Notes under the pieces: generated by a model
The model's database searches: none
What the model was told of the DNA's origin: nothing
Seen by the model: only the letters and a program-made list of their open reading frames with translations
DNA from: Thermoplasmata archaeon
Lineage (GTDB): Archaea > Thermoplasmatota > Thermoplasmata > Methanomassiliicoccales > Methanomethylophilaceae
DNA: 64,000 nucleotides
NCBI GenBank assembly: GCA_015063135.1
Contig: SUTA01000010.1
Coordinates: forward strand, 25,378 to 89,377
Direction: 5' to 3'
Shown: in pieces, positions 1 through 64,000 of the stretch
How the letters are laid out: each line of letters starts with the position of its first letter
Numbering within the stretch: position 1 is the stretch's first letter
Position numbers and translations under genes: made by a program

Positions 1-194
1 CTCAGCCCGAAATCGGCACAATGGGTGTGGCAGTCGACGAGGCCACGGATGATGATGGCGTCGGCGACCGGGCGGTCCGGCCTCCCCTCGCGGAAACCCG
101 CGACGAGGCCCCCCTCCAGCACCGCGTACCCCTCCCGGAGCCCGCGGCGGTCCAGCAGGTAGCCGCCTATCTCGCCGTCAGACATGCCGTCCAT
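1..194 (-). CDS. Amidohydrolase-family protein, N-terminal part (cut by window edge)
   Basis: About 64 codons are visible from ATG at 194; the gene runs off the left edge. After a glycine/arginine-rich start the protein reaches GLVDCHTH, the first metal-binding His-x-His strand of the amidohydrolase superfamily (TIM-barrel metal-dependent hydrolases). The preceding region is the small beta domain usual in these enzymes. The substrate cannot be told from this fragment. A TATA-like box lies 22-32 bp upstream, so the mRNA is probably near leaderless. An alternative ATG is at 185. Confidence 0.75.
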   Translation of the reverse strand, partial: MDGMSDGEIGGYLLDRRGLREGYAVLEGGLVAGFREGRPDRPVADAIIIRGLVDCHTHCADFGL

Positions 195-215
195 GGACGC
201 ACATCCCGCACGTGT

Positions 216-226
216 CTTTTAAAATA
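216..226 (-). promoter_or_regulatory. TATA box of the amidohydrolase gene
   Basis: Reads TATTTTAAAAG on the minus strand, about 25 bp before ATG 194. It lies just past the CGA codon ending the upstream reductase; under the standard code it would fall inside that coding region. Confidence 0.6.
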
Positions 227-271
227 TGCCTTCCGACAGGCGGACGTGGGCACGGGGCCGATGCCACAAAA

Positions 272-1207
272 TCGGGCCCAGTAGGGCTTCTTGCTGAACT
301 TGTACGCCATCAGGACGGCCGTGGTGGCCTCCCCCATCGCGGTGGTGATCTGCTTGAACTTCCCGGGGTAGCTGACCGCATCGCCGCAGGCGAAGATGCC
401 GGGGCGGTTGGTGGACATGTCGAAATCCACCTTGACGAGCCCCTCCTCGGTGATCTCAAGGCCCCACTTCTTGAGATCATCCAGATCCGCGGATATGCCG
501 ATGTTGATGACGACGAGGTCCGTGGGGATGAGCATCTCCTTCCCGTCCTGGCTCACGGTCACCGACTCCACATGGTCGGTCCCGTTGATCGAGACGAGGT
601 TGGCGCTCATGACGGTGTGGACGTTGCTCTTGGCGAGCTCCTTCAGCTGGATCTCGTCGGCGCGGAACTCCGCCCTGCGGTGCACGAGGGTGGTGTCGGT
701 GACGCTGTCGGCGACCAGTGCCATGTCGATCGCGGAGTTGCCGCCGCCGAACATGGTGATCCTCTTGCCGACGATGTCCTCCTTGGCGGGCAGGATGTAT
801 GAGACTCCCTTGCCCTCGAGCTCGTCCTCGCCGGGCACGCCCATCTTCTTGGGCTTGAAGCTGCCCATGCCGATGGCCACTATGACGGACTTGGCCTCGT
901 ACTCACCCTTGGTGGTCTTGATGAGCAGCACATCGTCGCCGTTGAGGATCTCCTCGACCTTCTCGTTCTCGTGGATCTCGCAACCTATGGACTCCGCCTG
1001 GGCGTAGAGCTTGTCCGAGAGCTTCCTGGCCTGGATGGTCTCGAATCCCGGGTAGTTGTGCACTCCCTTCTCGGGGTAGAGGCTGGTGAGCTGCCCCCCG
1101 ACGCGTCCCGAATCGAAGATGATAGTCTCCATCATCTTGGTCCTAGCGTAGATTCCGGCAGTAAGGCCGCCGGGGCCCGCACCTACAATGACGACGTCGT
1201 AGCACAT
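272..1207 (-). CDS. Ferredoxin-NADP reductase-like / thioredoxin-reductase-fold flavoprotein
   Basis: 311 residues. The N-terminus carries the FAD-binding GAGPGG motif (about residue 10), the centre an NADPH-binding GGGNSAID motif followed by HRR, and the C-terminus the second FAD motif with GDA. The CxxC redox pair of true thioredoxin reductases, expected just before the NADPH motif, is absent (SYILPAKED stands there), so it resembles YumC-type ferredoxin-NADP reductases or a TrxR-like protein of unknown partner. Start ATG 1207 is about 24 bp behind a TATA box (1229-1238). The protein ends KKPYWA at a CGA codon; standard reading would add 35 unrelated residues through the next gene's promoter to a TAG at 167. 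Confidence 0.8.
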
Positions 1208-1228
1208 CGGACGGGGGAGAGTTTCACC

Positions 1229-1238
1229 ATATAAAAAG
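1229..1238 (-). promoter_or_regulatory. TATA box of the reductase gene
   Basis: CTTTTTATAT on the minus strand, centred about 26 bp before ATG 1207; suggests a leaderless transcript. Confidence 0.6.
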
Positions 1239-1419
1239 ATGCCACACAAACGGACCGTTTTCCAGCATATATCCCGTCGTAAAACATCGAAAACCGCATT
1301 TTTTCTGCGGATTCCATCAATTCGGATACGACTATCGTAGATTGGATGCGGACCTGCCAGCCAGATGCCCTCGATAGGTATTTTACCGCTCACGCCAATC
1401 CGAACTCAGAGGCTTGGAA

Positions 1420-1788: not shown

Positions 1789-1819
1789 GTTTATTAGCGG
1801 GGAACTGCTGCGCGGTACC

Positions 1820-1924: not shown

Positions 1925-1930
1925 GGCCCC

Positions 1931-2866: not shown

Positions 2867-3763
2867 TCGGCACCCCTCGGGGCACACCCATCCGGACTTG
2901 GTCATGACCATCATCCCGCCGCATCTGGCACATACCATGGAGGTGGCCTCCGCGTTGCGGATCACCCTCTTGCCGGCGAGGTCCGCTGCGGCCCATGATA
3001 GGATGCCTGAGAGCTCCAGATGGCGGTCCTCCATGTCGGGGCCGTAGAACTGCAGGTTGTCCGCCTCGTTGTAGAGCCTCACCCGGATCTTGTTGATGGC
3101 CGTTGCGACGTTGTTGTAGGTCGTCAGGCCGACCGCCTCCAGGGGATGGACCTTCTCCCTGTAGCGGACGTCCAGGTACTCCTTGGAGCGGTCCAGGAAC
3201 CTGTCGAAGGCCGCCTCGTCGGGATAGACGGGGAGGGACATCACCAGGCTCCTCTGGCGCCTCAGCGGGGGGTTCCTCTCCAGGATCCCCTCGAGGATGG
3301 CGCGGGCGTCCTCGCGCATCGGGCCGTCCACTTGGCCGCAGACCTCCCTGACGGCATCCACATCCTCCGCCCTGGCTATCCTGGCCAGCGAGACGGCCGC
3401 GGAATGGTACTCCTCGCCCCTGGAGTGCTGGAGCGAATCCAGGAGCCCCGGGATCCTCTCATCGTCCTCCTCGAGGGCCTTCATGTAGCCCAGGCAGTGG
3501 TCGCGGACCCTTTGGGTATCCGTCCTCTGCATCCCGCGGATCTCGTCCTTGACGGACCTCTCGCGCACCTCGGCGAAGAGGTACACGACCTCGCAGCGCA
3601 CGCGCTCGTCGTCATCGTGCAGGAATGCGGCCATCACGGGAGCGTAGTCCGCCCTGTACGAGTTGCGGAGCCTCCTGTCCTCGGAGATCGCGCCGGCGCG
3701 TCCCGAGGACACTGCATCGGCGGCGTCGTAGAAGCGGTCCAGGTACTCCGTGCGCGGATCCAT
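2867..3763 (-). CDS. HEAT-like repeat protein with C-terminal zinc ribbon
   Basis: 298 residues. Residues 40-170 show helical HEAT-type repeats (FLHDDDERVRCEVVYLFAEV, then VRDHCLGYMKALEEDDE), a conserved central part follows, and the C-terminus carries a zinc ribbon, CARCG then VCPEGC. It ends in that last cysteine at a CGA codon (2867-2869); the standard code would add RRLSIVI-type residues to a TAG. The architecture suggests a scaffold binding protein or nucleic acid; no named family recognised. Confidence 0.65.
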
Positions 3764-4206: not shown

Positions 4207-5466
4207 ATGCTAGCTCCAATCTACATAGCCGCCATCGCGCTTCTGATAGTGTGCTCGAGCTTCTTCTCAATGACCGAGACCGCGTTCACCAGCGCGAACC
4301 AGATCCGCCTCAAGAAGATGGCCAACGAGGGCGATGCCAAGGCCGCGAAGACCCTGCGCATCCTCGAGGACTACGACAAGTTCCTCACGACCACCCTCAT
4401 AGGCAACAACCTGGTCAACATCGCCGGCACATCCATAGCGACCCTCCTGTTCGCCATCCTCCTGGGCGCCGAGACCGGCGCCGTGGCCTCCACCGTGGTC
4501 ATGACCATACTGGTCCTGATCTTCGGCGAGATCATCCCCAAGTCCTACGCCAAGCGCTACCCCGAGAAGGTCTGCATGAAGACCTGCGGCATCGTCCATG
4601 GGATAGAGGTGGCCCTGAGCCCGTTCTCCTGGCTCTTCACCCGCATCACGCGCCGCCTGAACAAGGGGGACATAGAGGACACCCTCACCGAGGACGAGCT
4701 CGAGGTCATGATCGACGAGGTCCAGAGCGAGGGGGTCATCGAGCAGGAGGAGGGCGAGCTCGTGAAATCCGCCCTCAGGTTCGACGACATCCAGGCGTCC
4801 GAGATATACGTCCCCCGCATGGACATCGTGGGCGTTGACTCCGAGATGCCCGTGGAGGAGCTGGGCAAGCTGATCTCGAGCACGCAGTTCTCAAGGTACC
4901 CCGTTTACGAGAAGAGCATCGACAACATCATCGGCGTGATCTACGCCAAGGAGTTCTACTCGGACTCCCTGATGGGCGTGAAGTTCACCATCCGCGACAT
5001 CATGAAGCCGGTGAAGTACGTGCCGGAGACCATGAGCATCGCCAAGATCATGAAGGACTTCCAGAAGTCCAAGATCCACATGGCGGTGGTCCTGGACTCC
5101 TACGGCGGGACCATGGGCATAATCACCATGGAAGACATCCTGGAGGAGCTCGTGGGCGACATATGGGACGAGAGCGACGAGGTGCAGCACGAGATCGTGA
5201 AGATCGACGACGGCACCTACCTCGCCAAGGGGGTTGCCAACATCTTCGACCTCACGGACATGATGTGCATCCGCTTCGACCCGGGCGATTACGAGGACTA
5301 CTCCGTCAACGGCTACATATTCTACAGGCTGGGCCGCGGGCCCGTCAGGGGCGACGTCGTCGACATGGAGGACGCCACCATCACCGTCAGGACCGTCAAG
5401 GGCCGCAGGGTGACGGAGGCCGTATTCAAGAAGAAGCCGGCTGAAGCCCAGCCAGAAACTCAGCGA
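4207..5466 (+). CDS. CNNM/CorC-type membrane transporter (DUF21, CBS pair, CorC_HlyC)
   Basis: 419 residues. Residues 1-140 form a DUF21 membrane domain with four hydrophobic helices (FFSMTETAFTS, then ILVLIFGEIIPKSYAKR near its end). A CBS pair follows (about 190-315, ending DSYGGTMGIITMEDILEELVGDI) and then a CorC_HlyC domain. The family includes Mg/Co exporters such as CNNM and MpfA. A frame extending upstream to 4144 contains a CGA just before the chosen ATG. The 3' end is CGA at 5464-5466 after QPETQ; a standard reading would continue 60 residues antisense to the next gene. The 41-bp convergent overlap with the RNA-binding gene remains. Confidence 0.85.
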
Positions 5467-7064: not shown

Positions 7065-8819
7065 GTGGCCATCGTCCTATGCGGCCTGCCGATCATCCTA
7101 GGAGCGGCGCTGGCACTTGTACGCGACCATGACGTGACAGCCGATCTCCTCGTATCCGTCGGCATAGCCGCCGCCATCTGCATCGGCGAGTACGCGGCCG
7201 CGGCCGAGGTCTCGATAATCATGCGCATAGGCGGCATCCTGGAGGAGGCCACCTGCGGCCACGCGGAATCCGGGATCGAAGAGCTCCTCCGCAGGAGACC
7301 CAGGACCGCGAGAATAGTCGAGGGTGCTTCGGTCAGAGAGGTTGACTTATCAGAAGTCCGGAAGGGGACTGTGGTGAGGATCCTCCCGGGGGAGCAGGTG
7401 CCAGTGGATGGCACGGTCATATCCGGGTCGTCCTCGGTGGATGCCTCGGCCATGACCGGGGAGTCCATCCCGGTCGACGTTTCCGTCGGCGACGCCGTCC
7501 GCGGAGGCACCGTGAACCTCTTCGGCTCCATAGACGTGGAGGCCTCCGGAACCTGGGAGGAGAGCGATTACGCTGAGATGGTCAGGCTCGTGCAGGACTC
7601 AGGCTCTGATACCAAGCTATCCCGCACAGTGGACCGCTGGGCGAGGTACATCGTCCTGATGGCCGCGATCGCCGCCGCATCCACCCTGCTGGTGACGGGC
7701 GACCCGGACAGGATGGTGACCGTCCTCGTCGTGTTCTGCCCGTGCGCCCTGGTACTGGCCACGCCCACGGCCGTCACCGCCGCCATAGGCAACATGGCGC
7801 GCAGGGGGATCCTCGTGAGGGACGGGTACGCCATCGAGGGGATGGCGGCTGTGGATACGGTGCTGATCGACAAGACTGGCACATTGACCGAGGGGAGGAT
7901 GGTCTGCACCGGTTACCGCGGCCTCGGCCCGAATCCGGAGAGGGCACGCGTCTACGCCGCGGCCGTGGAATCCATGTCGGAGCACCCGTTCGGGAGGGCA
8001 GTGGCGGCCTCCGTGGAAGGGGAGCTCCCCAAGGTGGAGGGCTTCGAGTACCGCCCCGGGAGAGGGGTCCTGGGCACCGTGGAGGGCCATTCTGTGGCCG
8101 TCGGGGGCCCTGGGCTCATGAGGGACCTGGGGATCGACTGCAGCGGCCTGGAATCGGGGGCCATGGTGGCCGTGGACGGCCGCCTGTGCGGGACATTCGA
8201 TCTCAGCGACGTGGTCAAGGGGGAGTCCAAGGCCACCGTCGACAGCCTCCGCTCCGACGGAGTGAGGACCATCATGCTCACCGGGGACAGGGAGGGGCCC
8301 GCCAAGGCCATAGCCTCGGAGACGGGCGTGGACGATGCCGTATGGGAGTGCCTGCCGGCCGACAAGCACCGCATAGCTAGCAAGATGAGCTCGGATGGCG
8401 CGGTGTGCATGGTCGGGGACGGGGTAAACGACTCCGCCGCGCTGAGGGCCGCCACAGTGGGGATCTCCATGGGCGGCGGCGACGGGCTCGTGGAAGGGTC
8501 CTCGGACATAGCGGTGGTCAGCGGATCCATATCGGACGTCGCCGGCATCAGGAAGCTGTCCAGGAGGACCCTGCTCACGATCAAGGCCGGGATCGGCATA
8601 TCCATAGCCCTGAACGTGGCCGCGACTGCGCTCGGCATGCTTGGCATGATGTCCCCGTCCACGGGCGCGCTGGTCCACAACGGGGGGTCCATCGCCGTGA
8701 TTGCGATGGCGGCCATGCTGGTGAGGTACGATGCCTGGAGCCTCGGTACTGGCCGCGGTACATCCTGGCATACCCGCCGCCAAGCGCCATCAGCTCCTCG
8801 TGGGTGCCGGTCTCGGCGA
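7065..8819 (+). CDS. P1B-type heavy-metal (probably copper) exporting ATPase
   Basis: From GTG 7065 the protein has 584 residues. It has the actuator loop AMTGES, the CPC metal motif in a membrane helix (FCPCALVLATPTA), DKTGTLTEG with the phosphorylated Asp, SEHPFG (HP motif) and GDGVNDSAAL. The last helix reads VHNGGSIAVI, not a canonical Cu or Zn signature, so metal choice rests on the CsoR neighbour. No N-terminal metal-binding domain is seen. Coding similarity clearly extends upstream to about 6942 (KVAEALRKELLPIATVAIS, the first helix), yet that stretch has no ATG, GTG or TTG in frame; an ATG at 6940 is one frame off. Ends at CGA 8817-8819, overlapping the convergent ABC gene by 77 bp. 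No internal CGA. Confidence 0.85.
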
Positions 8820-10497
8820 TCCTGCCTTCCTCCAGGTAGATGATGCGGTCCGCGTTGGATATGAGGTAGAGCTTGTGGGTGATGATCAGCAGGGTCCTGC
8901 CCTTGTAGAGCTCCCTGACCTTCTCCATCATCTGATAGGACGACCTGACGTCGATCCCCGCGGTGGCCTCGTCCATGATCAGGACCTCCTGGCCGGCGAC
9001 GATGGCGCGGGCCAGGGATATCAGCTTCTTCTCCCCCAGGGAGATCTGAAAGCGCTCCTCCCCGATCTGGGTCTCGTAGCCGTCGGGCATCAGCGCCACG
9101 TACTCGTCGAGGCCAGCGGTCTCGGAGGCGGCCCTGATCTCCTCCATGGAGCAGACCTCCTTGGGGAATCCGACGTTCTCCGCGACCGTGCCGTCGAATA
9201 TCCACGGGACCTGGCTTATCATGCCCAGGTGCCTGTGCAGGGAGACCCTCCTTACCTCCGAGAGGTCGTGCCCGTCGAACAGCACGCTCCCCGATGTGGG
9301 GCGGTAGAACCCCATGAGAAGGTTCGCTATGGTGGTCTTCCCGGATCCGGATGGCCCCACCAGCGCGGTTATCTTCCCCTCGGGGGCCTTGAAGGAGACC
9401 CCGTTCAGCACCTGGCGGTCGCCGTAGGAGAACGACACGTCCCTGAACTCCAGCTCTCCGCGCACATCATCTGGCAGCTCGGAGGCGTCCTCGGGCTCCG
9501 CGGGCTCCTCCTCCTCGTCGAGGAGGGCGCATATCCTCTCCAGGGCATGGAGCTCGTCCGCGATCTGGTTCATGTGGTAGCCGGTCTTGGTCACCGGGGA
9601 CTGGATCATCCTCACGAAGAACAGGCACGTGGTGAAGATCCCCATGGTGAGGTCCCCCTGTATGATCAGATAGGCGCCGAGGATGGCCGTGATGATGTAC
9701 CCGACGTTCATTATCGCGGTGCCCGCGGGCTCGACCAGCCCGGAGTACGTCCTGGACCTGCGGTAGGATGAGGCGTAAGCGGAGTTCCTCCTCCTGAAGC
9801 CCTCGGACATCCTGCCCTCGGTGGCGTAGGACTTGATCAGCGCGTGGTTCCTGACGGAATCGTCCAGGAACCCGTTCATGTCGCCCATGGCGGCGTAAGT
9901 CCCGACGTAATCCTTGTCCGAGGACCTGTCGATGAGATGCGTGACCAGCAGGGACGATGGCACCAGGACCAGGTACGCCAGGCCTATCGGGGGGCACTGG
10001 ATCAGCATGATGGCCAGCACCATGATGACCAGGACCTGCTGGGAGATGAATCCCAGGAGGTCGTTGGACATCAGCCTGCCGACGGCGTCGAAGTCGTTTG
10101 TGATGCGGGTGGATAGCTCCCCGGCGGGATGCTCGTCGAGGTACTCCACGGGCAGACGGTGGATCTTCTTCGCGAGGGACTCGCGCATCTCCGCTGTGGT
10201 GGTGCGGCTGACGAACAGCATCCTCTTCCCGGCTATTGCGGTGAGGGCGTACCACAGCACGATCAGCAGCGCCATGTAGCCGGTCATCTGCTCGATGTAC
10301 TCCGGCGTGATGACCGCGCCGGTGGACCAGTGCTCCACGAGGGCGTTGAAGAACAGTCCCCCGACCACCGGGGCGCTGACCGCGCAGACGGCACCGACCA
10401 GAAGCATCACTGCCGACAGTGCCGCATACCTGCAGCGGCCGCGGCCCATGATGGCCATCAGCCTCTTCAGCATCTGCCTGTAGAATCCCGTGTCCAT
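8743..10497 (-). CDS. ABC exporter half-transporter (membrane plus ATPase), second of pair
   Basis: 584 residues: six-helix ABC transmembrane domain (about 20-320) and ATPase with Walker A GPSGSGKTT, signature ISLGEKK in place of LSGGQ, Walker B VLIMDEATAG and switch His in ITHK. The signature is off consensus while Walker B keeps its Glu. It forms a likely heterodimer with the upstream half-transporter, whose CGA stop overlaps this ATG as CGATG. It ends YRGQY at CGA 8743-8745; standard reading adds over 50 residues antisense to the ATPase gene. All codons were checked: no internal CGA. The substrate is unknown. Confidence 0.85.
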
Positions 10498-12191
10498 CGG
10501 GCCCCCTCCTGGAGGCGGCGCATGGCCGCGTACTCGGGGCAGGTGCGGAGCAGCTCCTCATGGGTGCCGTCGCCGGCCAGCCTGCCGCCGTCGAAGAACA
10601 GGACCCTGTCGGCCAGGGATGCCTGGAGTATGTCGCCCGTGATGAACAATACCGTGTCGCCCTTGCAGCGGGCCATTATGTTGCCGACCAGCTTGGACTC
10701 CACCAGCGGGTCTATCGAATGGAAGCACTCGTCGAACACCCTTATGCCGGCAGGCTTGGCCAGGGACCTGGCGATGACCAGCCTCTGCCTCTGTCCGTCC
10801 GAGAACTCCAGGCCGCACGACGCGAAATCGGTGTCGAGGCCCTCGGGCAGCCCTGCGATCACATCGTCCATGCACGCATCGGAGCACACCGCGGCGATCT
10901 CCTCGTCGGATATGTCGCGGCCCATCGAGATGTTCTCCCTCATGGAGTCCCTGAGGATCATCACCCTGTCGGACACTATGCTGATGGACCCGCGGGCGTC
11001 CTCCGGGCCGTCGACTTCCAGGCCGTCCACCAGGACCCTGCCGGACGACGGTGGCCTGGTCCCGGCTATCGCGGCCACCATGGCCCTCCTCATGGGGCCC
11101 TTCAGCCCGACCATGACGGTGACCTCCCCCCGGCGGATCGCCAGGTCTACATCCCCGGCGACCGGCTTCCCGCCGATCCCAAGCGTTGCGGACTCGAACC
11201 TTATGGCATCGCTCGATTCGGCGCGTACCGGTTCGGAAGCCTCCTCCGCGGGCGCATCGAGTATCTCGAGGATCCTGCGCTTGCCCACGGCGTACTTGGG
11301 GGCCACGCCGGTGATGAACGGCACCACCGCCAGGCACCCTATCAGGCATCCCCAGAGCTGAACGATCAGGGACAGCTCCGCCACGCTCATGTCAAAGTCC
11401 CCGACGGTGATCCCGCCGCGGTTGTACACCATCACCAGAACGAAGTTGATGATCGCGATGGCGAGGATCGGGTAGAAGTATGTGTTGTTGTTGTACTTGG
11501 TGCCCTTCTTGACGAACACCGAGTGGTAATCGGAGAACCTCTTCATCTCCTGCTCCCCGCGGCCGTAGGCCCTGATGGCCCTGGCCCCCGAGGCGGAGTC
11601 CCTGAACATGCCCGTGACGCCGTCCATCAGAACCTGGACGTCGTCCACCATGCGGCGGATCCTCAGGCCCGAGTATATCATGAAGAGCACCACGGCGACG
11701 AACGACACCAGCATGGCCGCGCAGGCCCATGTGCTGATCTCGAACACCATCCACAGCATGAGGAACATCATGGGCGGCACGAACAGGACCGCCGTGACCA
11801 GCAGCCTCGTGTACTCCTGGACCGCGTTCACGTCGGTCGTCATCCTCACCATCGTGTCCGAGGTGTCGCGGGTGCACTTGTCGGGGGCCGGCATGGACAT
11901 GACCCGGTCGTACAGGTCCTGGCGGATCTCCGCGCCGACGCGGGAAGCCAGCCTCGCGGATATGACGGACACCGCGAACGACATCACCATTATGCCGCCG
12001 GCGAGCAGGATCATGACGAACGCGAACCCCAGCACCAGTTCGAAGTCCTTCGCGGCCACGCCCTGGTCGATGATGGGCTTGGTCAAGTAGAGCAAGTAGA
12101 TCTGCAGGAACGCAACGAATATCTGCAGGACGACCGCGCCAACGATCAGATACGGGCGGCGCTTCAGGTACCTCCATACCAATGACGCCAT
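10497..12191 (-). CDS. ABC exporter half-transporter, first of pair, with degenerate ATPase motifs
   Basis: 564 residues. The transmembrane domain includes the opening WRYLKRRPYLIVGAVVLQ. The ATPase half is unusual: Walker A reads VGLKGPMRRA instead of GxxGxGK(S/T), the signature is FSDGQRQR and Walker B reads GIRVFDECF. A degenerate site in one half is common in heterodimeric exporters, where only one site hydrolyses ATP, but here Walker A itself is lost. Both ends overlap neighbours through CGATG: the ATG with the CGA of the FNT gene, and its own CGA with the ATG of the second half. Confidence 0.8.
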
Positions 12192-12790
12192 CGGGCCGCG
12201 GTCTCCTCGTACATATACTTCCTCGCCGCGGGGATTATGATGCCGCCGACGGCGTTGCCCAGGATCACCACGATGATGAACGCCAGAGCCTCCAGCGTGA
12301 ACTGGCCGCCGGCGCAGAAGTAGAACATGTCGGCGATGGAGTGCTCGAAGCCGGCGAGTATGAACACCGGCACGCAGATGAACGTGGCCAGGTACTTCTT
12401 CCTGGTCTTGTAGTAGTCGGCGGCGATGAACATCAGCACGCCGCAGAACACTCCCTTGAAGAACACCCTGATGTAATCGGGGTCGTCCAGCTTCGCCTGG
12501 GCGAGCGCCTCGGCGGCGTCGGAGGGCAGCGCCAGGCCGAGAGCCAGGCACCCCACGAAGTTTCCGATAATCACCAGGATGAGGTACGGGATGTATGAGC
12601 GGTCGTTCTCAACGGAGTAGCCCACCTTGCCGGTGTAAAGGTCCAGGCCGAAGGTGAACACCGTGAACAGGCCGATCGAGAACAGCACGGCCCCTACCCA
12701 CCTCACTTCGCATCCCAGGTAGACGAATCCACCAATCCCGATGGCCATACCCGCCAGGATCGCTCTGATGAAAGCCTTCTTGTAGTCCAC
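12191..12790 (-). CDS. Formate/nitrite transporter (FNT) family channel
   Basis: 199 residues with six hydrophobic helices. FNT hallmarks are the KKAFIRAILAGMAIGIGG opening, SIGLFTVFTFGLDLYTGKVG and GFEHSIADMF. The conserved central His of the pore is in GFEHSIADM. FNT channels pass formate, nitrite, hydrosulfide or related monovalent acids; the substrate is not determined. It leads a three-gene operon with the two ABC half-exporters and ends EETAA at CGA (12191-12193), overlapping the next ATG. Confidence 0.85.
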
Positions 12791-37076: not shown

Positions 37077-37370
37077 ATGACAGAGAGGGAAGCCAAGAAG
37101 GAGCTCATGAGGAGGGCCAACGAGATCAGCCCCACGGTCCATGTGGGCAAGGACGGCCTTGACGAGGGGCTCTACGCCGAGATCACTGCGCAGCTGAAGA
37201 AGAACCGCCTGATCAAGGTGAAGGTGCTGTCCAACTCCGACAGCGGGGCCAGAGACGCCGCGGACGCCATCGAGGCCGAGACCGGTGCGGTCGTGGTGGA
37301 CGTGCGCGGAGGGGTCATAGTGCTGACCGACAAGCGCACCTGGACGTCGCTCTCCCAGAAGAAATTCCGA
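37077..37370 (+). CDS. YhbY/CRM-domain RNA-binding protein
   Basis: 97 residues. CRM domain: KKELMRRANEISPTVHVGKDGLDEGLYAEI, then LKKNRLIKVKVL; the GxxG loop appears as VGKDG. Bacterial YhbY binds pre-50S; archaeal members are thought to act in ribosome or tRNA maturation. It ends QKKF at CGA 37368-37370, with a further in-frame CGA four codons on, 11 bp before serS. Confidence 0.85.
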
Positions 37371-53162: not shown

Positions 53163-54926
53163 ATGCTCTACTCCGAACTGGCCGAGACGTTCGACCGCCT
53201 GGAATCCACCACCAGCCGCCTGGAGATGGCCACCATCATGGCCGGGTTCTTCCGCACCGTGGATCCCAAGGAGCTCAGGGGCATCGTCTATCTGTCGCAG
53301 GGCAAGCTGCACCCGGACTTCTTCCCGCAGGTCCTGGGGATGTCGGACAAGCTCGTCCTCAAGGCGATCGCCATCGCGAGCGGCCACTCCGAGAAGGAGA
53401 TAGAGGGGATGTGGATCAAGACCGGGGACCCCGGCGAGGTCGCCGAGAAGATGATGGCCACGAAGAAGCAGATGGCCCTCTTCTCCGAGGAGCTGACCGT
53501 CTCCAGGCTCATCGCCGGCCTGACATCCATCGAGAACGCGTCCGGGAAGGACTCCCAGGACAAGAAGATGAAGACCCTCGCCAACCTCCTGCACGACTCC
53601 GGGCCCCTCGAGGCCAGGTACCTCTGCAGGATCGTCACGGGCAGGATGAGGGTCGGCGCCGGGGACATGACCATACTGGATGCCCTGGCCGAGGCGTTCG
53701 CGACCAAGGAGGGCCGCCCCGCCATAGAGAGGGCGTTCAACGTCACCTGCGACATCGGGCTCGTGGCCGAAACCGTGGCCGTCGGCGGGATGGAGGCCAT
53801 CTCGAAGGTGGGCGTGACCGTCGGCAGCCCGGTCAAGGTCATGCTCGCGGAGAGGCTCCAGTCGATCTCCGAAGTGGTGGAGAAGATGGGCGGCCGCTGC
53901 GCCATGGAGTACAAGTACGACGGGATCAGGGTGCAGGCCCACATCGGGAAGGACGGCGTGAAGCTGTACTCCCGCAGGCTCGAGGACCTGACCTCCAACT
54001 TCCCCGACATCGCCGACGAGCTGCGCGCCAAATGCAAGTGCCAGGAGTGCATAGTCGAGGGCGAGTGCGTCGCCATCGACCCCGAGACCGGGTACATGCT
54101 CCCGTTCCAGAACGTCACCCACCGCAGGAGGAAGAACGACATGGACTCCGCCGTGAAGGAGGTCCCAGTGAGGATTTTCCTCTTCGACATCCTGTACGAC
54201 GGCGAGGACCGCACCGGGATGGCCTATCCCGACAGGAGGTCCCTGCTCGAGTCCACCTTCGCTATGGGCGGCATGATACAGACCACGACCATGAGGGTCG
54301 TGGAATCGCCCGAGGAAGGGGAGGACTTCTTCGCCGGCGCCATCGCCAACAGGTGCGAGGGTATAATGGCGAAGTCGCTGTCCCCCGAATCCGTCTACCG
54401 CGCCGGGTCCAGGGGATTCCTCTGGATAAAGTACAAGAAGGACTACCAGCAGGCCCTAACCGACTCATTCGACCTGGCCGTCGTGGGGGCGTTCTACGGC
54501 ATGGGCAAACGCGCCGGCAAGTACGGGGCGCTCCTGATGGCCGCCTACGACCCCGACTCCGGCAGGTTCCAGACAGTCTGCAAGCTCGGCACCGGGTTCG
54601 ACGACGCGTTCCTGGACGGCATGCCCGAGCTGCTGAACGGCACGCTCTCCGAGGGGAGGCCCAGGCTCGTGGACGCCGAGATGATCCCGGACGTGTGGTT
54701 CGACCCGGCCGTCGTGCTGGAGGTCGTCGCCGCTGAGATCACCCTCAGCCCCATACACACCGCCGCGTGGGACGTCATCAAGGAGGGGGCGGGGCTCGGG
54801 ATAAGGTTCCCCAGGTTCACCGGCCGCGTGAGGGACGACAAGGACCCCGAGCAGTGCACCACCGTGGGGGAGATCGTGGAGATGTACGGCATGCAGGCCC
54901 ACGACTCGGACGGCCTGTCCGAGCGA
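53163..54926 (+). CDS. lig: ATP-dependent DNA ligase
   Basis: 587 residues, usual archaeal length. N-terminal DNA-binding domain (MLYSELAETFDRLESTTSRLE), adenylation site EYKYDGIRVQAH with the catalytic Lys, SRRLEDLTSNFPD, ECIVEGECVAIDPETG, DSFDLAVVGAFYGMGKRAGKYG, GLGIRFPRFTGRVRDDK. Seals nicks in replication and repair. It ends DSDGLSE at CGA 54924-54926; TAG would be 11 codons later. Confidence 0.95.
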
Positions 54927-54960: not shown

Positions 54961-56139
54961 ATGCAGAGCGACCGCATCCTGACCAGGGACTTCGTGCTGG
55001 TCACGTTCACGTCGCTCTTCTGCATCCTGAACTACTTCTTCCTGCTGATCATAATCGTGGATTTCGCCGAGACCCTCGGCGGATCCCCGTTCATGGGCGG
55101 TCTGGCCGCTGGGGTCTACGTCATCAGCGGCTTGGCATCCAGGCTCTTCTTCGGGAAATACATCGAAATGGTCGGGAGGAAGAGGATGCTCCTCATCGGC
55201 CTGGCCTCGGCGGTCGCCGTCAGCTTCCTGTACCCCTTCGCATCGTCCATGGCGCTCCTTATCGCCGTCAGACTGGTCCACGGGGTCACCTACGGGATAT
55301 CCAGCACCTGCTCCAACGACATAGTGGCCAAGCTGGTCCCCCCGAAGAGGAGGGGCGAGGCGATGGGGTACTACTTCCTCAACGCCACCGCGGCCATGGC
55401 CATCGGCCCGCTGATCGGCATGGTCCTGGCGGATTCCGACAGCTTCACGCTGGTATTCAACCTGGGGACCCTGATGTACATCTCGGCCCTCCTCTGCGCC
55501 CTGTTCATCCGCGTGCCCGAGGAAGACCTCACACACGAGCAGAGGAGCGAGGCCAAGGGCTTCGGCATCAGGAGCGTCCTGCAGCTCTCCGCCGTGCCTC
55601 TGGCACTCACCTCGATGGTGTTCTACCTATCCTACTCCGGGGTGCTGTCGTTCATCAGCTCCTACACGGAAGGGACCCCCATGGAGGGCCCGGCGACGTT
55701 CTTCTTCCTGTCCGTGGCCGCTGGCACGCTGATCTCCAGATTCTATACCGGGCGCCTGTACGACAGCAGGGGGCCGAACGTCGTGCTGATCCCGGCCATG
55801 ACCCTTTTCATCATCGGGCTGGCGGTCTACGCGGTCACGTCCAATCCCTACGCGTTCCTTTGCAGCGGGTTCCTGATCGGGTACGGGATCTCCAACGTAT
55901 TCGCGATATGCCAGACCATCGTGATCGCTACCGCTCCGCCGCACCGCTACGGGGTAACCACTGCGACGTTCAACTCCATCAACGACCTGGGCTCCGGCCT
56001 CGGTCCGTCGATCATGGGGATACTCGTCATCGCCCTGGGATACAGCGAGATGTACCTCGTCTGCGTGCTGATAGCCATCGGCAGCCTGGCCCTCTACTGG
56101 TTCGCCCACGGGCGCGCCGTACATGCGGGCGCGGCGCGA
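54961..56139 (+). CDS. Major facilitator superfamily transporter
   Basis: 392 residues, 12 helices. GxxxD-type loop KYIEMVGRKRMLLIGLASAV between helices 2 and 3, and VRLVHGVTYGISSTCSNDIVAKLVPPKRRGEAMG in helix 4-5. Resembles multidrug or unspecified MFS exporters; no substrate prediction. It ends HAGAA at CGA 56137-56139, 3 bp before the rpoL TATA box. Confidence 0.85.
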
Positions 56140-56423: not shown

Positions 56424-57725
56424 TTGTACAGGACATGCACGACCGCGGAAGCGGGCGTGGGCATGCGCAAGTACCTCTGCGACACCGACGGCACCGGAGG
56501 CCATCTTAAGACCGAGCCCGAGGATTTCAGGGTCACGGAGATATCCGACCTCCCGAGGGCCAAGGTCGACGGGGATTACACCGTCGCAACCGTCACCTGC
56601 CGCAACTGGGAGACCAACAGGCTCGTCAGGATGATGTCCAGGGACCTTGGCGTCTCCAGGGAGGCCATCGGCTTCGCCGGCACCAAGGACAAGAGGGCCG
56701 TCACGAAGCAGCTATTCTCGTTCAAGTGCACCGAGGAGGACCTGAAGAAGATCTACCTTGCGGACGTCACCATCGAGGATCCCTACAGGGCCGCCAGAGC
56801 CCTGCAGATCGGCGACCTCATCGGCAACGAGTTCGAGATCAGGGTGAGGAAATGCACCGTCCCAGAATCGGAGCTCCCCGGGATCATATCCGAGGACGTC
56901 TCGATCATCAAGAAGACCGGCGGGTTCCCCAACTATTTCGGGGTCCAGAGGTTCGGCGCCGTCAGGCCGGTCACCCACCTCGTGGGCGAGAGGATCGTCC
57001 GCGGCGACATAGAGGGCGCCGCAAGGCTGTACATCACATACACCACCCCCGAGGAGGACTCCGAGACCGCGGAGGTCAGGAGGTCCCTCGAGGGATGCAC
57101 GGACTGGAAGGCCGCCATCAAGAGGATGCCGCCGTCCATGTCCTTTGAGAAGGTCGTCGCCGGGGAGCTGATCTCCCATCCCGACGACTACGCCGGCGCG
57201 ATCGGCGCCCTGCCGAAGAACCTGCAAATGATGTTCGTCCACGCATACCAGAGCATGCTCTTCAACGAGATGCTCAGCAGGAGGATGGACGCCGGGATGC
57301 CGCTGAACATGCCCGTCGAGGGGGACATCGTCATCCCCACGGACGCCAACGGGATCCCCGACCACGAGCAGCTCGTGAGGGTCACGTCCAAGAACATAGA
57401 CCTCGTGGCGAGGCAGGTCCGCGCCAAGAGGGCGTTCGTCACCATAGCGCTGTTCGGCTCCGACGGCATTTTGGCCGAGGGCGAGATGGGCGAGATCGAG
57501 AGGGCTGTCGTCGAGGAGAACAGGCTGTCCCCCGAGGACTTCATCGTCCCCGAGCTCAACAAGTGCAACTCGAAGGGCGGCAGGAGGGAGATCCTCTGCC
57601 CGCTGAAGGACCTCGGCGCCGAGACGCACGAGGACGGCTACACGCTTAGATTCTCGCTCCCCAAGGGCAACTACGCAACGTGCCTCCTGAGGGAGTTTAT
57701 GAAGTCCGAGATGAGGGATTACCGA
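56424..57725 (+). CDS. truD: tRNA pseudouridine(13) synthase TruD
   Basis: 433 residues. GHLKTEPEDFRVTEI, GFAGTKDKRAVTKQLFSF (catalytic Asp in GTKDK), GFPNYFGVQRFGAVRPVTHLVG, FVHAYQSMLFNEMLSRR and FSLPKGNYATCLLREFMK are family signatures. TTG start at 56424 fits the family N-terminus (an ATG lies at 56463). It ends SEMRDY at CGA 57723-57725; next codon TCG is the antisense of the CGA that ends the convergent TPR gene. Confidence 0.93.
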
Positions 57726-60700
57726 TCGGACGATCAGGGTGAGGACGGCCCTTGCCTCGTAGACCCCGAGCCCGCAGTCGCGGATGACGTCGTAAACGGT
57801 CATGCCCTTGGGGAGCCCCATGGAGATGGATGACAGCCGGGAATCCGTGGACCTGCCGACGTCCACGCGCATCGCCTTGAAGATGTAGGCCACCGCTTCC
57901 TTCGCATCGTCAGCGTCCTTGAACCCGCACTTGGCGAAGACCTTCTCCAGTGGCAGGCGGGAATCGGATTCCAGGTCCCTCCACTCGAGCTTGACCACCA
58001 CATCATGAGAGACCTTCTCCATCCTGGCGAACTCGTCGGTCCCCGGGGTGATCCTGCCGTAGTCGGGCTTCTCCGATATGTAGTCGATCACCTTCGACGT
58101 CATCGAATCGTCCAGGCCCAGGAACGCCATGATGTCCGGGTCGGTGGGGTCCGATTTCATGGTGTACGCGCGCCTGAGGGCCTTCTCGGCGTTCCTCTTG
58201 ACGTTAACATCCACGGACTCCGATTTGGGACCGCGGCCCATCATGCCCATGGCGTCGTCGTTCATGCCGACCGCCTCCATTATCTTGACCATCTGGACCG
58301 TGCTCTCCGCCCCGGGGGACGGGAGCATCTTGAACATGTTGGAGGCCTCCCTCACGCCCTCGCGGTTCCCGAAGGAGGCGCACATCTCGGCATACCTGAC
58401 CACGACCCTGGCGTCGGGGTGCTCGGCGGCGATCCTCTCCATGCTCTGCATGGATGCGGGGTCCCCAGCATCGAACTGCATCTCCGCCAGCTTGTTGAGG
58501 ATGTCCATGTCCTCCGGCGCGGCCCTGTGCGCGCCCTCCATGTCGGCGAGCGCGGAGTCCGTCTCGCCCATGGCCTCGTACGACTCGGAGCGCTTGACCA
58601 GCAGGCGGACCGGCTGGCCGCCGCATCCCAGGGCGGTGGAGTACTCCATTACCGCCGACTTGTGGTTCTTGGTGGCCGCCATGCAATCCCCGACCACCTC
58701 GTGGAGGCCGGGGTGGTCCGGATCGGATGCCAGCAGCGGCTGGGCCATCTCCAGAGCCCCCTGGACGTCGCCCAATGCGAGGACCAGACGGGCCTTGACG
58801 AACACGAGGTCAGAATCATGGGGATCGATCTCCAGGGCGCGGTCTATGGTGCGCATCGCGCCCTTGCGGTCGCCGGCCGATTCCAGCGAGAGCGCCATCT
58901 TGGCCAGGGCCATCAGGTCCTCCGTTTCCTCTTCCGGCTCCTCCGGCGCGGGCTCCTCCCTGGCCGCCACAGCCACGCATGCAGTCTTCCTGACTATGTC
59001 CGGCTCATCCGGATGGAGGTTCCTCATCGCCCTGACGATGCTCTCGGCCTCCTCGTCCATTCCCAAATTCGCCAGGGCCGCAGCCTTCATCCTCAGCAGT
59101 TCCATGTTGGCGGGATCGGCTTCGAGGGCCGGATCGATCACCGATATCGATTCCTCTGGATGCCCGGCATCGAGGCAGCACCTCGCCATCTCAAGGGCGA
59201 TCTCTGGATCATCCCTGCCCGGGAGGTTCCTGATTATGGACATGGCCTCGTCGTAGCGCCCTGCGCGGAGCATTATGAGCACCCTGCCGCTCGCTATCCT
59301 CGGGTCATCCGAAGACGCCATGGCGATGCCCATCAGCGATATTGCCTCGTCGTAGCGGTCCAGGTGCGCCAGCAGCATGGCCTTCCTCACGAGGGCGTAC
59401 GGCGAGGACGAGTCCACCTCTATGGCGCGGTTGAGCGAGTTGACGGCCCCCTCGAAGTCGCCGGAGACCTCCTGCATCCTGGCTCTGGAGACCCAGTACT
59501 CGGCCTCCTTCGGATCGAGGGACACGGCCCTGTCGTAGGCTTCCGAGGCGGAGTCCCAATCGCCCCTCCTCTCATCGGCCATCCCCTTGGAATGCCAGAT
59601 GATCGGATTCGAGGGATCGGCCTGGGCCGCCGAGACGTATGCGACGGAGGCCTGCATGTAATCCCCCATGGAATAGTGGGCGTTGCCCTTGACCAGGCGG
59701 ACCATGTAATCGCCGGGGTACGCCCTCTCCAGGTCGGCGCACAGCCTTATGGCGTCCCTGGGGAGCCCCAGCTCCACGTACAGCCCTGCGACGTCCACGG
59801 CGTTATCCCTGCCCTTGTCCAGGCGGTAGGCGCTGTCAAGGAGGTTCTGGGCCTCCATCATGTCGCCCTCCTGGACCTGCAGGCGGGCCATGGCCTTCAT
59901 GGCCCCGATGTCGTCGGTGTTGGTCTCCAGCAGGCGGCCGTAGGCGTCTATGGCCGCTGCGCGGTCGCCCCTGAGGTCGGCCAGCTCGGCCTTGATGTGC
60001 AGAGCCCCGGCATGCCCGGGATCGGCGGCCAGTATCCTGTCGCATATCTTCTCGGCAACGGCGTCCCTTCCGGAGAGCCTGTTGTTCCTGGCCCTCTGCG
60101 CCAGCGCGTCCGCGTTCCCGCGGTCCGCAGCCAGGGCCCTGGCCACATCGGCCATCGATCCCTGGATGTCCCCGCGGTGCGCCTTCAGCACGGAGGACCT
60201 CGTGAGCACTCCGGCATCGCGGGGGTACGTCAGCAGGACGCTCCCCAGGAGCTCCTCCGCCTCCGCCTCCATCGATGCGGATATGAGTATGTCGATCAGG
60301 CCGAGGTAGTCCTCCTTCCCGGAGAACTCGCTGTCCAGGTACATCCTGATGGACTCGGCGAGCCCCTCCTTGCGGCCTATGGTGTCGTAGATGACGACCC
60401 TGTCCCTGGCCGCCCTGCGGCTTATCGGGACTATCGGGTACAGAAGCTCCAGCGCGGCCTCTGTCTCCCCGGCGCCCATCAGCGCCTCCGCGGCCTCCTG
60501 GCGCACGAATACGGGGGAGCCGCCCAGGAGCTCGCGGTACATCTTCACCGCGGAGATCCAGTCCTTCTCGGACGCCGACATCCTTGCGGACGCCAGCTTG
60601 AAGTCCCTGTCCCCATCCTTGTAGTAAGGGGACTCAATCAGCATGTGCGTGGCCCTGTCCCTGCTGCCGAAGAACCACTCGGTGTAAATCGAATAAAGGT

Positions 60701-61608: not shown

Positions 61609-61663
61609 TCCGCTCCGATGAAATCGTTTGCGCAGAGGCCGATGGGGCGGGATGACCCGGACC

Positions 61664-63271
61664 TCACACCACGTAGTACTTGGACAGGAAGTACGTCCTC
61701 TCCCAGTCGACTATCCCCACCTCGGATTCCTTCGCGGGATGGATGTCGAACTCGTCGAAGACCATCACGTACTTGTTCTCGGTATCGTACAGCGGCCACA
61801 TCTTCGCCTTCCCGTCGGGGGAGATGTCCGAGGTCAGGGAGGGGTCCCCGGTCTTCGCGAACTGGGCCCACATCTTGCGCATGGTCTTCGAGAACGTCTC
61901 GTCGAACGCCCTGGTCATGTAGGAGGCGGTGTGCTGGTGGTCGAACAGCGGGGCCAGCTCCACGGAGTGCCCGCATCTCATCAGGGGTATGTCGGATTCC
62001 GGCGTGAAGTAGTAGGTGAAGCACCTGCCCCCTGCCTTCGCCTGGTCCTCCGACTGTCTGATGAGGGGGATGTTGAACCAGATCTGGTCGAGGATGCGGC
62101 TGCTCTTCTCGAAGTCCTCGCCCTTCACGTCAGCGATGAAGCTCTCGACCAGCGCCCTCTCCTCGTCGGTCTCCAGCTCGGCCATCTTCTCCTCCAGGCG
62201 CTGCGAGCCCCACGCCATGTATGCATCCACGCCGAGGCCGGAGACGAAGTAGTGCATCTCATCCTTGTTGCATCCCTGGAGGACGTCGATGTCCCTGGCG
62301 GCTCCGTCGGCGTATGCGGCGATGGTGTCTAGCGGCAGGAGCTTTCCATCCCTCTCCGGGGTCGTGCGCATGGCGACCACGCCGGTCGCTCCCACCAGCT
62401 CCTCCGGGGTGAGCTTCTGCAGGTCGGCGACTGTCTTGCAGCCCAGGGCATCCATGATCCAGCCCGTGCATTCGATGGCCTGCTCCGTGGACCTCGAGAA
62501 GGGCGATGCGCCGCTCTGTGCGATGAACCTCTTGAAGTACTCCTGTGCGCCGTCCACCAGGGGCAGGAGCGATACGCTCCCGGCTCCGGCGGATTCGCCG
62601 TAGATGGTCACATTGCCCGGGTCGCCGCCGAACGCGGCGATGTTCTCGTGGACCCACTTCAATCCCATCAGCTGGTCCAGGAGCCCGAGGTTCTGCGCAT
62701 CGGGGTAGTCCTTCCCGTCGGGCAGATGGGACAGGTGGAGGAACCCGAATATGCCTATCCTGTACTCGACGGACACGCAGATGATGTCCGGGTTCTCCCT
62801 GACGAAGTTGCTGCATTCGTACAGGGGGTCCACGGTGCCGCCCATCTCGTAGGCCCCTCCGTGGAACCAGACCATGACCGCCTTCTTCTTGGCCGATCCG
62901 TCATCCGCCCTCCATACATCCAGGTAGAGGCAGTCCTCGCTCTGCTTGTAAAGCGATGCGCTCTCGGAGACGGCCACGCCCTGGCGCGGGCTGCATCCGT
63001 TGTAGTATGCTTCGTACACCCCGTCGTCCGGGACGTACTCCACCGGCGCCTTCCAGCGGAGCTCCCCGACCGGGGGCTTGCCCGTGAACGGGATGCCCTT
63101 GTACGCGATGATACCGTCATTCCTCTTGCCGACGAACGTGCCGTTGACGCACTTGACGGCCAGCGACCTGTCGTAGTCCCCGTCCGTGATCTCCTTGTTC
63201 TATCCGTAGAGGGCCTTGATCTTGCTCTTTATCTCGTCGATGAGTTTCATCCTTTCTTCGGATTCCTGCAT
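61664..63271 (-). CDS. Carboxylesterase (type B) with in-frame TAG, probable pyrrolysine
   Basis: 535 codons. The start ATG at 63271 gives MQESEERMKLIDEIKSK..., codon 24 is TAG (63200-63202), and the frame continues NKEITDGDYDRSL, GTFVGKRNDGIIAYKGIPFT, PPVGELRWKAP, the obligatory N-terminal strands of type B esterases. The catalytic GESAGAGS, the oxyanion HGG in VWFHGGAYEMGG and the late His (CGHSVEL) follow. After the TAG there is no start codon until GTG 63043, which would remove those strands. So TAG is most simply read as pyrrolysine. Ends in TGA. A sequencing error or pseudogene is the alternative. Confidence 0.85.
63200..63202 (-). other. In-frame TAG codon, candidate pyrrolysine residue 24
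   Basis: Reads TAG on the minus strand between ALYG and NKEI of the esterase. No other gene in the window uses TAG as its stop. Confidence 0.65.
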
Positions 63272-63438
63272 GTTCCCACATCCTCTATCGATGGCGGCTG
63301 ATGACCGCCTGTACCCATAGTAGACAGTAGTGTCATAAAAAGGAGCCGAGACGCGGAAGCCGTGTTCCTGAGGGGGCCGAGAGGACCATCGGAAGAGGGC
63401 CGCTGGCCAGCATCAGCGGGAAGGAGCTGCGCGACTAC

Positions 63439-63744
63439 ATGGTGGGCGAAATGGATACGTCCCTGTGGGGAGAGATACTGGAGTTCTCCGATAACGTCCG
63501 CGTGTACACGGACTGGTCCGGCGTGGAGGTCAGTAGCATCACGGTGGACGGCGGCGAGTTGGAGGATTCGAGGATGTACGAGATGATCACCAGCACATTC
63601 GCAGCCACCAAATTGCTGAAGCTCCCCCAGGAAAGGATTGTCAGGGTCATAGGAGATATGATGCAGCTCCTGGTCGGCACGTTCGTTTCTAACGACCCCA
63701 TCGAAGAGGACATGCTCGGAGGGGACAGGTACGTGAGGGAATGA
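63439..63744 (+). CDS. Hypothetical small protein
   Basis: 101 residues, acidic, no signal or membrane helix: DTSLWGEILEFSDNVRVYTD, ITVDGGELEDSRMYEMITS, then ERIVRVIGDMMQLLVG. No family recognised. ATG 63439 has GGAG 13-18 bp upstream; a TATA-like CATAAAAAGG lies at about 63330. Ends in TGA. Confidence 0.55.
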   Translation: MVGEMDTSLWGEILEFSDNVRVYTDWSGVEVSSITVDGGELEDSRMYEMITSTFAATKLLKLPQERIVRVIGDMMQLLVGTFVSNDPIEEDMLGGDRYVRE

Positions 63745-63873
63745 CGGTCCCCGATCCTCTTCGTGTATAGCGGTGCTTGCGTCTCTATACCCAAACTGGA
63801 GGGTCGCGACCCCCATCGTGGCGACGGTATCGTGTCCTGAAAATGGAGACCGGCCAGTCCATTTGGGCAAATC

Positions 63874-63883
63874 GTTATATACC
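63874..63883 (+). promoter_or_regulatory. TATA box of the 5S rRNA gene
   Basis: GTTATATACC about 25 bp before the RNA start. Confidence 0.7.
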
Positions 63884-63901
63884 AGCCCGATATGGAGAGG
63901 T

Positions 63902-64000
63902 CTGGTAAGACGGCCATAGCGGCGGGGTCACACCCGGTCCCATCCCGAACCCGGAAGTAAAGTCCGCCCGCGTACCTGTCTGTACTGTATTGCGCAAGCG
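63902..64000 (+). rRNA. 5S ribosomal RNA, 5' part (cut by window edge)
   Basis: GACGGCCATAGCGGC, then GTCCCATCCCGAACCCGGAAG and TAAGTCCGCCCGCG are the universal loop A-B-C segments of 5S rRNA. About 99 nt are present; the 3' end is outside. The exact 5' end is estimated. Confidence 0.9.

Follow-up and report, generated by a model that had tools for sequence, protein, structure and literature searches.

Evidence that the arginine codon CGA serves as a stop codon in an archaeal genome of the family Methanomethylophilaceae

Changes of a sense codon into a stop codon have been reported from organelles: UCA/UCG in the mitochondria of Sphaeropleales (PMC6821328) and UUA/UCA in peDinoflagellate plastids, a case of October 2025 that was called the first outside mitochondria (PMC12574857). 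Among the CGN arginine codons, CGG of Mycoplasma capricolum has been described as unassigned or nonsense (cited in PMC8629427), and CGA and CGG are read as tryptophan in Absconditabacteria (PMC8629427). Here, we describe the use of CGA at gene ends in a 64,000-nucleotide stretch of archaeal DNA (the window; bases 25378-89377 of contig C36) and in the genome from which it comes, G000 (GCA_015063135.1), where CGA is likely a dedicated stop codon, predicted to be read by the single release factor aRF1.

G000 resembles the organellar sense-to-stop codes, as far as the reports describe them, in that the codon leaves gene interiors and appears where homologues end and in that the release factor is altered in its codon-reading domain; the cognate tRNA is also lacking, as stated for a mitochondrial case. 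However, the organellar codes involve RF1/RF2-type factors, whereas G000 is a cellular archaeal genome with an eRF1-type factor, and the first codon base is the one changed. In addition, nearly half of the resolved gene ends of G000 are at CGA, its relatives are in intermediate states, and a conserved CGA is present in the relatives' release factor gene. As described for M. capricolum CGG, a CGN arginine codon lacks an amino acid meaning, but in G000 hundreds of genes end with it. As described for Absconditabacteria, CGA loses its arginine meaning, but the change in those low-GC bacteria is sense-to-sense, whereas that in G000 is sense-to-stop at 60% GC. No prior report of CGA as a stop codon, or of a stop change in Methanomassiliicoccales, was found in the open-licence PMC literature. 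Since the sense-to-stop reports that we found come only from organelles, this is, as far as could be found, likely the first such change in a cellular rather than an organelle genome. Codetta, by its own statement, cannot detect sense-to-stop changes (PMC9825746).

G000 is a metagenome-assembled genome (MAG) of 1,860,562 bases in 40 contigs (87% complete, 0.05% contaminated, 60% GC), and its family, Methanomethylophilaceae, was judged from its relatives. In the aRF1 tree, it is the sister of the 25 other included genus members (support, 90/89). The 61 named loci reached via aRF1 have titles that are mostly Methanomethylophilaceae, Methanomassiliicoccaceae, or Thermoplasmata; by title, many are from animal rumen, colon, omasum, or faeces and a few are from fens. 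Below, the other G numbers denote genomes of relatives, and L numbers denote individual loci or stretches.

The 62 gene models of the window end at CGA (30 genes), TGA (29), or TAA (3) and never at TAG, which agrees well with the initial annotation, where TGA 30, CGA 28, TAA 7, and TAG 0 had been counted in ~65 genes and CGA had been proposed to be a stop codon. Gene ends were also called with a codon-usage hidden Markov model (HMM) in which CGA, TAA, TAG, and TGA all scored zero (neutral), a choice made against circularity, so that the model cannot know the stops. A first run covered 405,856 bases of G000 (113,821 coding codons called), and an extended run added 15 further stretches to give 705,856 bases (~706 kb), where L304 shares 5 kb with L087 and a few genes may therefore have been counted twice. 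Over the ~706 kb, the resolved ends were TGA in 236 cases, CGA in 219, TAA in 19, and TAG in 7 (219/481 for CGA), so the clustering of CGA at coding ends, for which a count by codon position had been called for, extends beyond the window. Within the 405,856 bases, 102 of the 140 in-frame CGA codons were located at most 10 codons from a segment end, as were 64/86 TGA, 15/32 TAA, and 9/23 TAG codons; for 15 other rare codons the pooled value was 304/2,951 (4 to 27% each). The trinucleotide CGA is frequent (24.8 per 1000), and from this frequency ~2,800 in-frame CGA codons would be expected by chance in the 113,821 coding codons. Mean coding scores per codon were 0.35 upstream and -0.67 downstream of CGA ends, compared with 0.36 and -0.74 at TGA ends. 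Among 343 HMM segments of G000, the first stop-type codon was outside the tight search interval in 37 (17 of them CGA) and absent in 33. A codon-replacement control on the window, which has weak discriminating power, gave the best total coding score with CGA as a stop (7140), followed by CGG as a stop (6873) and no extra stop (5597).

The base 3' of the CGA stops in G000 is T in 99 cases, G in 57, A in 41, and C in 22. In 73 of the TGA ends, the context is ATGA, which is able to overlap the next start, whereas CGA cannot form such an overlap; ends that read into ATG comprise 28 CGATG and 16 TGATG. The aRF1 gene of G000 itself terminates at CGA, with no standard stop within 62 further codons.

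Homology resolved 68 gene ends of G000 (nine more did not resolve), of which 32 are CGA, 31 TGA, 4 TAA, and 1 TAG. No standard stop is nearby in 24 of these 32 CGA cases, and at the same 32 ends the relatives have TGA (242), TAA (33), CGA (25), TAG (11), or an unclear codon (6). If CGA still encoded arginine, the long reading frames would be C-terminal extensions after stop loss, or else assembly errors, and the few CGA ends in relatives with little CGA could indeed be ordinary stop loss. However, no coding signature is present 3' of CGA, the extensions would be hundreds of residues long or fuse unrelated genes, and interior CGA is absent. Furthermore, CGA ends were identified by homology as well as by HMM in separate assemblies (G001, G026, G027, and L225), and G000 and G001 share the position of the terminal CGA in one gene. 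We consequently give this explanation next to no credence.

C-to-U editing of mRNA occurs in plant organelles, and an editing activity that turned terminal CGA into UGA would be expected to leave an identical pattern in the DNA, including the interchange of CGA and TGA between orthologues at the same position. Nevertheless, hundreds of edited sites would be needed in one genome, and editing explains neither the loss of tRNA-Arg(UCG) nor the family-wide depletion of CGA nor the pattern at aRF1 position 68 described below. We know of no stop-making C-to-U editing of mRNA in archaea, although no search for it was made, and we regard editing as very improbable.

In the homology-supported core codons of G000, CGA occurs 7 times in 30,249, compared with ~130 expected at the outgroup rate. 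One of the seven lies where two tandem SEL1-type genes meet, and this is the only CGA in the 3,967 codons supported by at least five genomes. Five others belong to open reading frame (ORF) o695 and are read there in an incorrect frame, downstream of a gene with homology up to residue 391 and a CGA at codon 393. No well-supported interior CGA was thus found in the 30,249 conserved codons examined, and the earlier observation that genes lack internal CGA holds for them. The HMM segments contain 63 internal CGA and 53 internal TGA codons in 188,693 core codons. Among the 63, 32 are at most 30 codons from a segment end, 5 are at most 30 codons from a start, and 21 are deeper and accompanied by a drop in coding score, a pattern as where two genes share one frame.

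Profile comparisons were made for 20 read-through ORFs per library (5 without a match in NCBIfam and 2 without a match in Pfam). In the cases previously singled out as clear (serS, truD, lig, queC, Rpr2, the helicase, both ABC half-exporters, FNT, and SMR), the profiles end before the CGA. The standard code would fuse the helicase to the DNA ligase and the SMR protein to a Usp protein. The following genes of the window end at CGA (aa, amino acid position):

2867-3763, minus strand: gene with a weak HEAT-repeat match below the Pfam cut-off; CGA at 2867..2869 (gene model).
~4207-5466, plus strand: CNNM/CBS/CorC_HlyC-domain gene; CGA at 5464..5466, codon 420, with Pfam CorC_HlyC reaching aa 409 and the next standard stop 61 codons further.
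8743-10497, minus strand: ABC half-exporter; CGA at 8743..8745, codon 585 of a 638-aa read-through ORF, with NCBIfam MsbA_rel (575/576) reaching aa 583.
10497-12191, minus strand: second ABC half-exporter; CGA at 10497..10499, codon 565, with MsbA_rel (575/576) reaching aa 561; by coordinates, a CGATG overlap with the ATG of the next gene.
12191-12790, minus strand: formate/nitrite transporter family gene; CGA at 12191..12193, codon 200, with TIGR00790 matched to 234/239 at aa 192.
18854-21793, minus strand: beta-propeller and FecCD permease gene; CGA at 18854..18856, codon 980 of 1339, with PF01032 (310/311) reaching aa 971 and the ORF open for 360 more codons.
26754-28856, minus strand: gene of the ADP-forming acyl-CoA ligase type; CGA at 26754..26756, codon 701, with NF045493 (697/698) reaching aa 696.
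29665-30357, minus strand: queC; CGA at 29665..29667, codon 231 of 455, with PF06508 (209/210) reaching aa 219 and the ORF open for 225 more codons.
31599-32600, minus strand: SBF-domain gene; CGA at 31599..31601 (Pfam match and gene model).
Ending at 33933, plus strand: ferritin-like gene; CGA at 33931..33933, codon 156, with PF00210 (141/142) reaching aa 144.
35701-36702, plus strand: unnamed gene; CGA at 36700..36702, codon 334 (gene model), in frame with the downstream Rpr2 domain, which the standard code would place in the same ORF, starting at aa 371.
36760-37074, plus strand: RNase P component 4 (Rpr2) gene; CGA at 37072..37074, codon 458 of a 459-aa ORF, with PF04032 (90/90) reaching aa 446.
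37077-37370, plus strand: YhbY/CRM-domain gene; CGA at 37368..37370, codon 98, with PF01985 (82/84) reaching aa 83.
37382-38653, plus strand: serS; CGA at 38651..38653, codon 424 of 841, with TIGR00414 (418/418) reaching aa 414 and the ORF open for 418 more codons.
~42133-42774, minus strand: unnamed gene; CGA at 42133..42135 (gene model).
49247-49651, minus strand: SMR-family gene; CGA at 49247..49249, codon 135 of one ORF that holds PF00893 (aa 12-103) and PF00582 (Usp; aa 195-331).
51528-53078, plus strand: Hef-like helicase gene; CGA at 53076..53078, codon 517 of one 1143-aa ORF that holds the helicase (aa 2-510) and the ligase (aa 546-1120).
Ending at 54926, plus strand: ATP-dependent DNA ligase gene; CGA at 54924..54926, codon 1133, with TIGR00574 (526/527) reaching aa 1120.
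54961-56139, plus strand: MFS transporter gene; CGA at 56137..56139, codon 393, with NF003477 (395/404) reaching aa 387 and the ORF open for 47 more codons.
~56424-57725, plus strand: truD; CGA at 57723..57725, codon 434, with PF01142 (412/412) reaching aa 425 and the ORF open for 36 more codons.
57726-61286, minus strand: TPR-repeat protein gene; CGA at 57726..57728, with orthologues in G020, G028, and G014 covering residues 8-1186, 5-1186, and 9-1186 of 1187 and the ORF open for 338 more codons.

The window also carries tRNA-Ile(GAT) (6440-6515), tRNA-Gly(TCC) (61353-61425), and a 5S rRNA gene cut off by the window end (63906-64000).

The Rfam tRNA model identified 43 tRNA genes in G000, of which 42 were read by ARAGORN; the remaining one (L070) has the anticodon CAT and, by eye, a probable intron. 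The Rfam search overlooked at least tRNA-Pro(GGG), which the covariance models R1 and R2 recovered, and the absence of tRNA-Arg(UCG) is therefore based on R1 and R2 together with an empty genomic site. No tRNA-Arg(UCG) was found by R1 or R2 in the whole 87%-complete assembly or by ARAGORN in the loci read. The arginine anticodons of G000 are TCT, CCT, GCG, and CCG, and a tRNA with U34 is present in every other four-codon box (Ala, Val, Thr, Pro, Gly, Ser, and Leu). By comparison, tRNA-Arg(UCG) was read in 12 of the 13 relatives queried (G001, G002, G006, G007, G014, G018, G026, G027, G029, G030, G032, and G047); in the thirteenth, G033, not all matches became loci, and it counts neither way. 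In the seven genus members compared (G001, G002, G014, G018, G026, G027, and G029), the tRNA gene is directly upstream of one conserved gene, the G001 product of which starts MPKVIMNHGAGGEL and which we take to be HypE-like. At the corresponding site of G000, in the middle of contig C25 near 95.4 kb, both flanking genes are kept and tRNA-Arg(UCG) is gone, in line with the loss proposed in the initial annotation. The left neighbour of the site terminates with KKES-CGA in G001 and KKQS-CGA in G000. When followed from the tRNA-Arg(GCG) side, synteny breaks toward the UCG site, and it is the other flank that settles the empty site. The D-loop of tRNA-Arg(UCG), as judged by eye, is 1 to 2 bases shorter in G001, G002, G014, G018, G026, and G027 (L256, L255, L259, L261, L267, and L190) than in G007, G029, and G030, and such a short D-loop could possibly mark a weakened tRNA.

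Three features make CGA a likely stop codon in G000: its frequency at the ends of genes is close to that of TGA, the conserved interiors of genes are free of it, and the gene for its tRNA has been lost. The original proposal is borne out by the end counts in the window and the ~706 kb, the 32 resolved cases in which homologues end at the same place, the profiles, and the tRNA loss. The stop reading is thus strongly supported, and aRF1 is its predicted reader on the basis of sequence comparison.

The use of CGA among relatives was measured as the first stop-type codon at HMM segment ends (CGA/all resolved), with the relatives' HMMs seeded with the G000 model and with genomes below 50% GC, loci shorter than 9 kb, and eight named duplicates left out (L214 gave zero segments). 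The values were 133/273 in G000, 45/153 in G001, 21/68 in G027, 10/62 in G026, 13/81 in G029, 6/39 in G021, 2/11 in G008, 4/30 in G006, 5/17 in L225, 2/16 in L233, 2/16 in L240, 3/27 in G009, 2/19 in G005, 4/60 in G014, and 2/65 in G018. By homology, CGA ends were identified in G001 (7/25), G026 (3/22), G027 (6/31, the 6 including two overlapping loci), and L225 (3/12), as well as in G008, G021, and others, and none were found in G029 (0/21) or G018 (0/28). In relatives that keep tRNA-Arg(UCG), 0-31% of genes end in CGA; therefore, CGA termination very likely came before the loss of the tRNA. The aRF1 gene of G031 (a horse faeces MAG; L109 and L223) ends in KV followed by a tandem CGA and TAG.

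These relatives also bear on the explanation in which CGA is merely unassigned, so that ribosomes stall at it and are freed by rescue factors or slow near-cognate release, with no adaptation of aRF1. The absence of tRNA-Arg(UCG) in G000 and the near absence of CGA inside the genes of the genus would both fit. However, CGA is not avoided everywhere but positively used at 219 of the 481 resolved ends, including those of serS and aRF1, and CGA ends are already present in relatives in which tRNA-Arg(UCG) is retained, most prominently in G001 (45/153) and G027 (21/68). The explanation also leaves the pattern at aRF1 position 68 unaccounted for. We consider it unlikely, though the most plausible of the alternatives to a dedicated stop codon.

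Depletion of CGA is seen across the family: its share of arginine codons is 38/588 in outgroup contigs, 17/864 in Methanoplasma-type contigs, 39/6606 in genus relatives, and 9/1835 in Methanomethylophilus-type contigs. Of the 97,073 homology-supported codons of the genus relatives, 30 are CGA, and one and the same aRF1 codon accounts for 22 of these (with overlapping loci of a single genome counted separately). By alignment, it corresponds to codon 81 of human eRF1, in the context SIA[A/S]-R-LKT. It is CGA in all 25 genus relatives with a readable N domain, preceded by GCT or TCT and followed by CTN AAR, and the base 3' of it is C, the rarest after CGA stops in G000. In nine Methanomethylophilus-type contigs (assigned to this type from the tree for six of the set and from the codon in common for the others), the sole CGA in 28,976 homology-supported codons is aRF1 codon 28, which is CGA in 10 of 10 contigs read (the tenth, L226, by direct reading); the HMM segments of such contigs have 1 to 4 core CGA codons each, including that of aRF1. 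With shared ancestry ignored, the binomial odds of the two concentrations are 2e-17 and 6e-9. Methanoplasma-type aRF1 genes have 1 to 4 CGA codons at varied sites, and that of G032 has none.

The bacterial release factor gene prfB contains an in-frame UGA and is autoregulated. A Mimivirus class-I release factor gene carries internal stops (PMC3521657). In common with these systems, as far as described, the relatives' aRF1 gene (for example, in L031, L102, L225, and L240) contains, in frame, a codon predicted to be recognized by the encoded factor. However, that codon is the nominal sense codon CGA, in frame and without a frameshift, and it is absent from G000, where codon 81 is CGC. The conserved CGA is predicted to be an autoregulatory, readthrough-prone codon, a self-regulating sensor limiting aRF1 synthesis; lacking tRNA-Arg(UCG), G000 could not keep it.

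In human eRF1 simulations, CGA, CAA, and CAG are rejected by ~6 kcal/mol, largely via Lys63, and Arg68 holds the NIKS loop (PMC5681627). In the computed Arg68Ala variant, the penalty for C at position 1, including that for CGA, falls from ~6 to 1-2 kcal/mol, so that the rejection of CGA is nearly removed (PMC5681627). The NIKS motif is intact in the aRF1 of G000. Residue 68 is Met in 26 of the 26 readable genus members (G000 included), in 5 of the 5 family genomes of other genera, and in 33 of the 35 named family contigs, the other 2 having Leu. In contrast, it is Arg in all 15 readable genomes of outgroup families f2-f5. In addition, G000 alone of 41 sequences has N69 and H70 beside the NIKS loop (K69N and N70H; the others have K69 in 40/40 and N70 in 39/40). 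The initial annotation had suggested a release factor that accepts C at the first codon position. The family-wide change of residue 68 and the K69N and N70H substitutions agree with this suggestion, whereas the NIKS motif itself is unchanged; the residue-68 change is likely the cause of the predicted CGA reading. The aRF1 proteins of G001 (L102) and G006 (L117), both of which have CGA at some gene ends, have NIRS instead of NIKS; K63R is the one substitution at that site said to retain activity (PMC5681627).

Several observations weigh against these conclusions or limit them. The complete state, with neither the tRNA nor CGA in aRF1, is known from one MAG that is 87% complete. The seventh supported CGA in G000, in ORF o945, is interior, with a single match and a weak coding score, and 5 of the 63 HMM-internal CGA codons show no drop in coding score. 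Some relatives with Met68 have no CGA stops (0/29 in G030, 0/27 in G019, and 0/18 in G003, all of lower GC, and 0/24 in high-GC G016). The outgroup locus L247 uses CGA as a sense codon (30 core occurrences) and still scores 2/13 at ends, so that small-sample values near 10-15% prove little, and the 13/81 of G029 by HMM stands against 0/21 by homology. In family f6 (G040, G043, G046, G049, G055, G057, and G059), residue 68 is Asn in six cases and Gln in one, yet CGA still accounts for 12 of 153 arginine codons in aRF1, and the loss of Arg68 alone is therefore not sufficient. The f6 proteins also have Arg at position 66, and this residue may, as a conjecture, compensate for Arg68. The Arg68 calculation concerns human eRF1. 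An aRF1 of this kind should accept CAA as well, and the share of CAA among glutamine codons is 24/282 in outgroups, 12/272 in Methanoplasma-type contigs, 14/838 in Methanomethylophilus-type contigs, and 83/2768 in the genus, with no such drop for AAA. Relative to AAA and GAA, CAA is also less frequent in the family than in outgroups. However, CAA is not enriched at gene ends (18/137 by HMM), and the shares of CTA (0.038 in outgroups, 0.013 in the genus) and CCA (0.077 and 0.036) decrease about as much as that of CAA (0.085 and 0.030), so that the drop in CAA may be general codon bias and lends little support.

The gene for PylS is present in G000 (G000:C18:72418-73092; 267.8 bits, above the cut-off), and TAG is for this reason probably a sense codon for pyrrolysine; the working stops would then be TGA, CGA, and rare TAA. 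Pyrrolysine tools for genetic code expansion have been derived from a member of the family, Methanomethylophilus alvus.

The loss of Arg68 throughout the family, the conserved CGA in aRF1, and the loss of the tRNA can be read as successive stages of one route. Loss of Arg68 would loosen the NIKS loop, and aRF1 would take C as well as U at codon position 1. CGA, and perhaps CAA, would then be hazardous within genes family-wide and would be purged; at gene ends, CGA would be nearly equivalent to TGA and could spread through T-to-C transitions. Most members of the family probably keep tRNA-Arg(UCG), and CGA would stay ambiguous in them, whereas in the G000 lineage, with the tRNA lost and aRF1 codon 81 being CGC, reassignment looks complete. 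On balance, we lean toward this wider picture of a family whose sense and stop codons are imperfectly separated, in which the residue bracing the NIKS loop was lost, CGA was purged except as a thermostat in aRF1, and the tRNA was discarded in the G000 lineage, giving the first cellular sense-to-stop reassignment with its intermediates extant. The graded states in the family, with CGA at 0, 3, 16, 30, and 49% of resolved ends, make a route from sense through ambiguous to stop directly testable. The family would thus be a natural test of how eRF1 and aRF1 discriminate the first base of stop codons, and f6, with Asn/Gln68, Arg66, and CGA in use, would be a natural test of compensation for Arg68.

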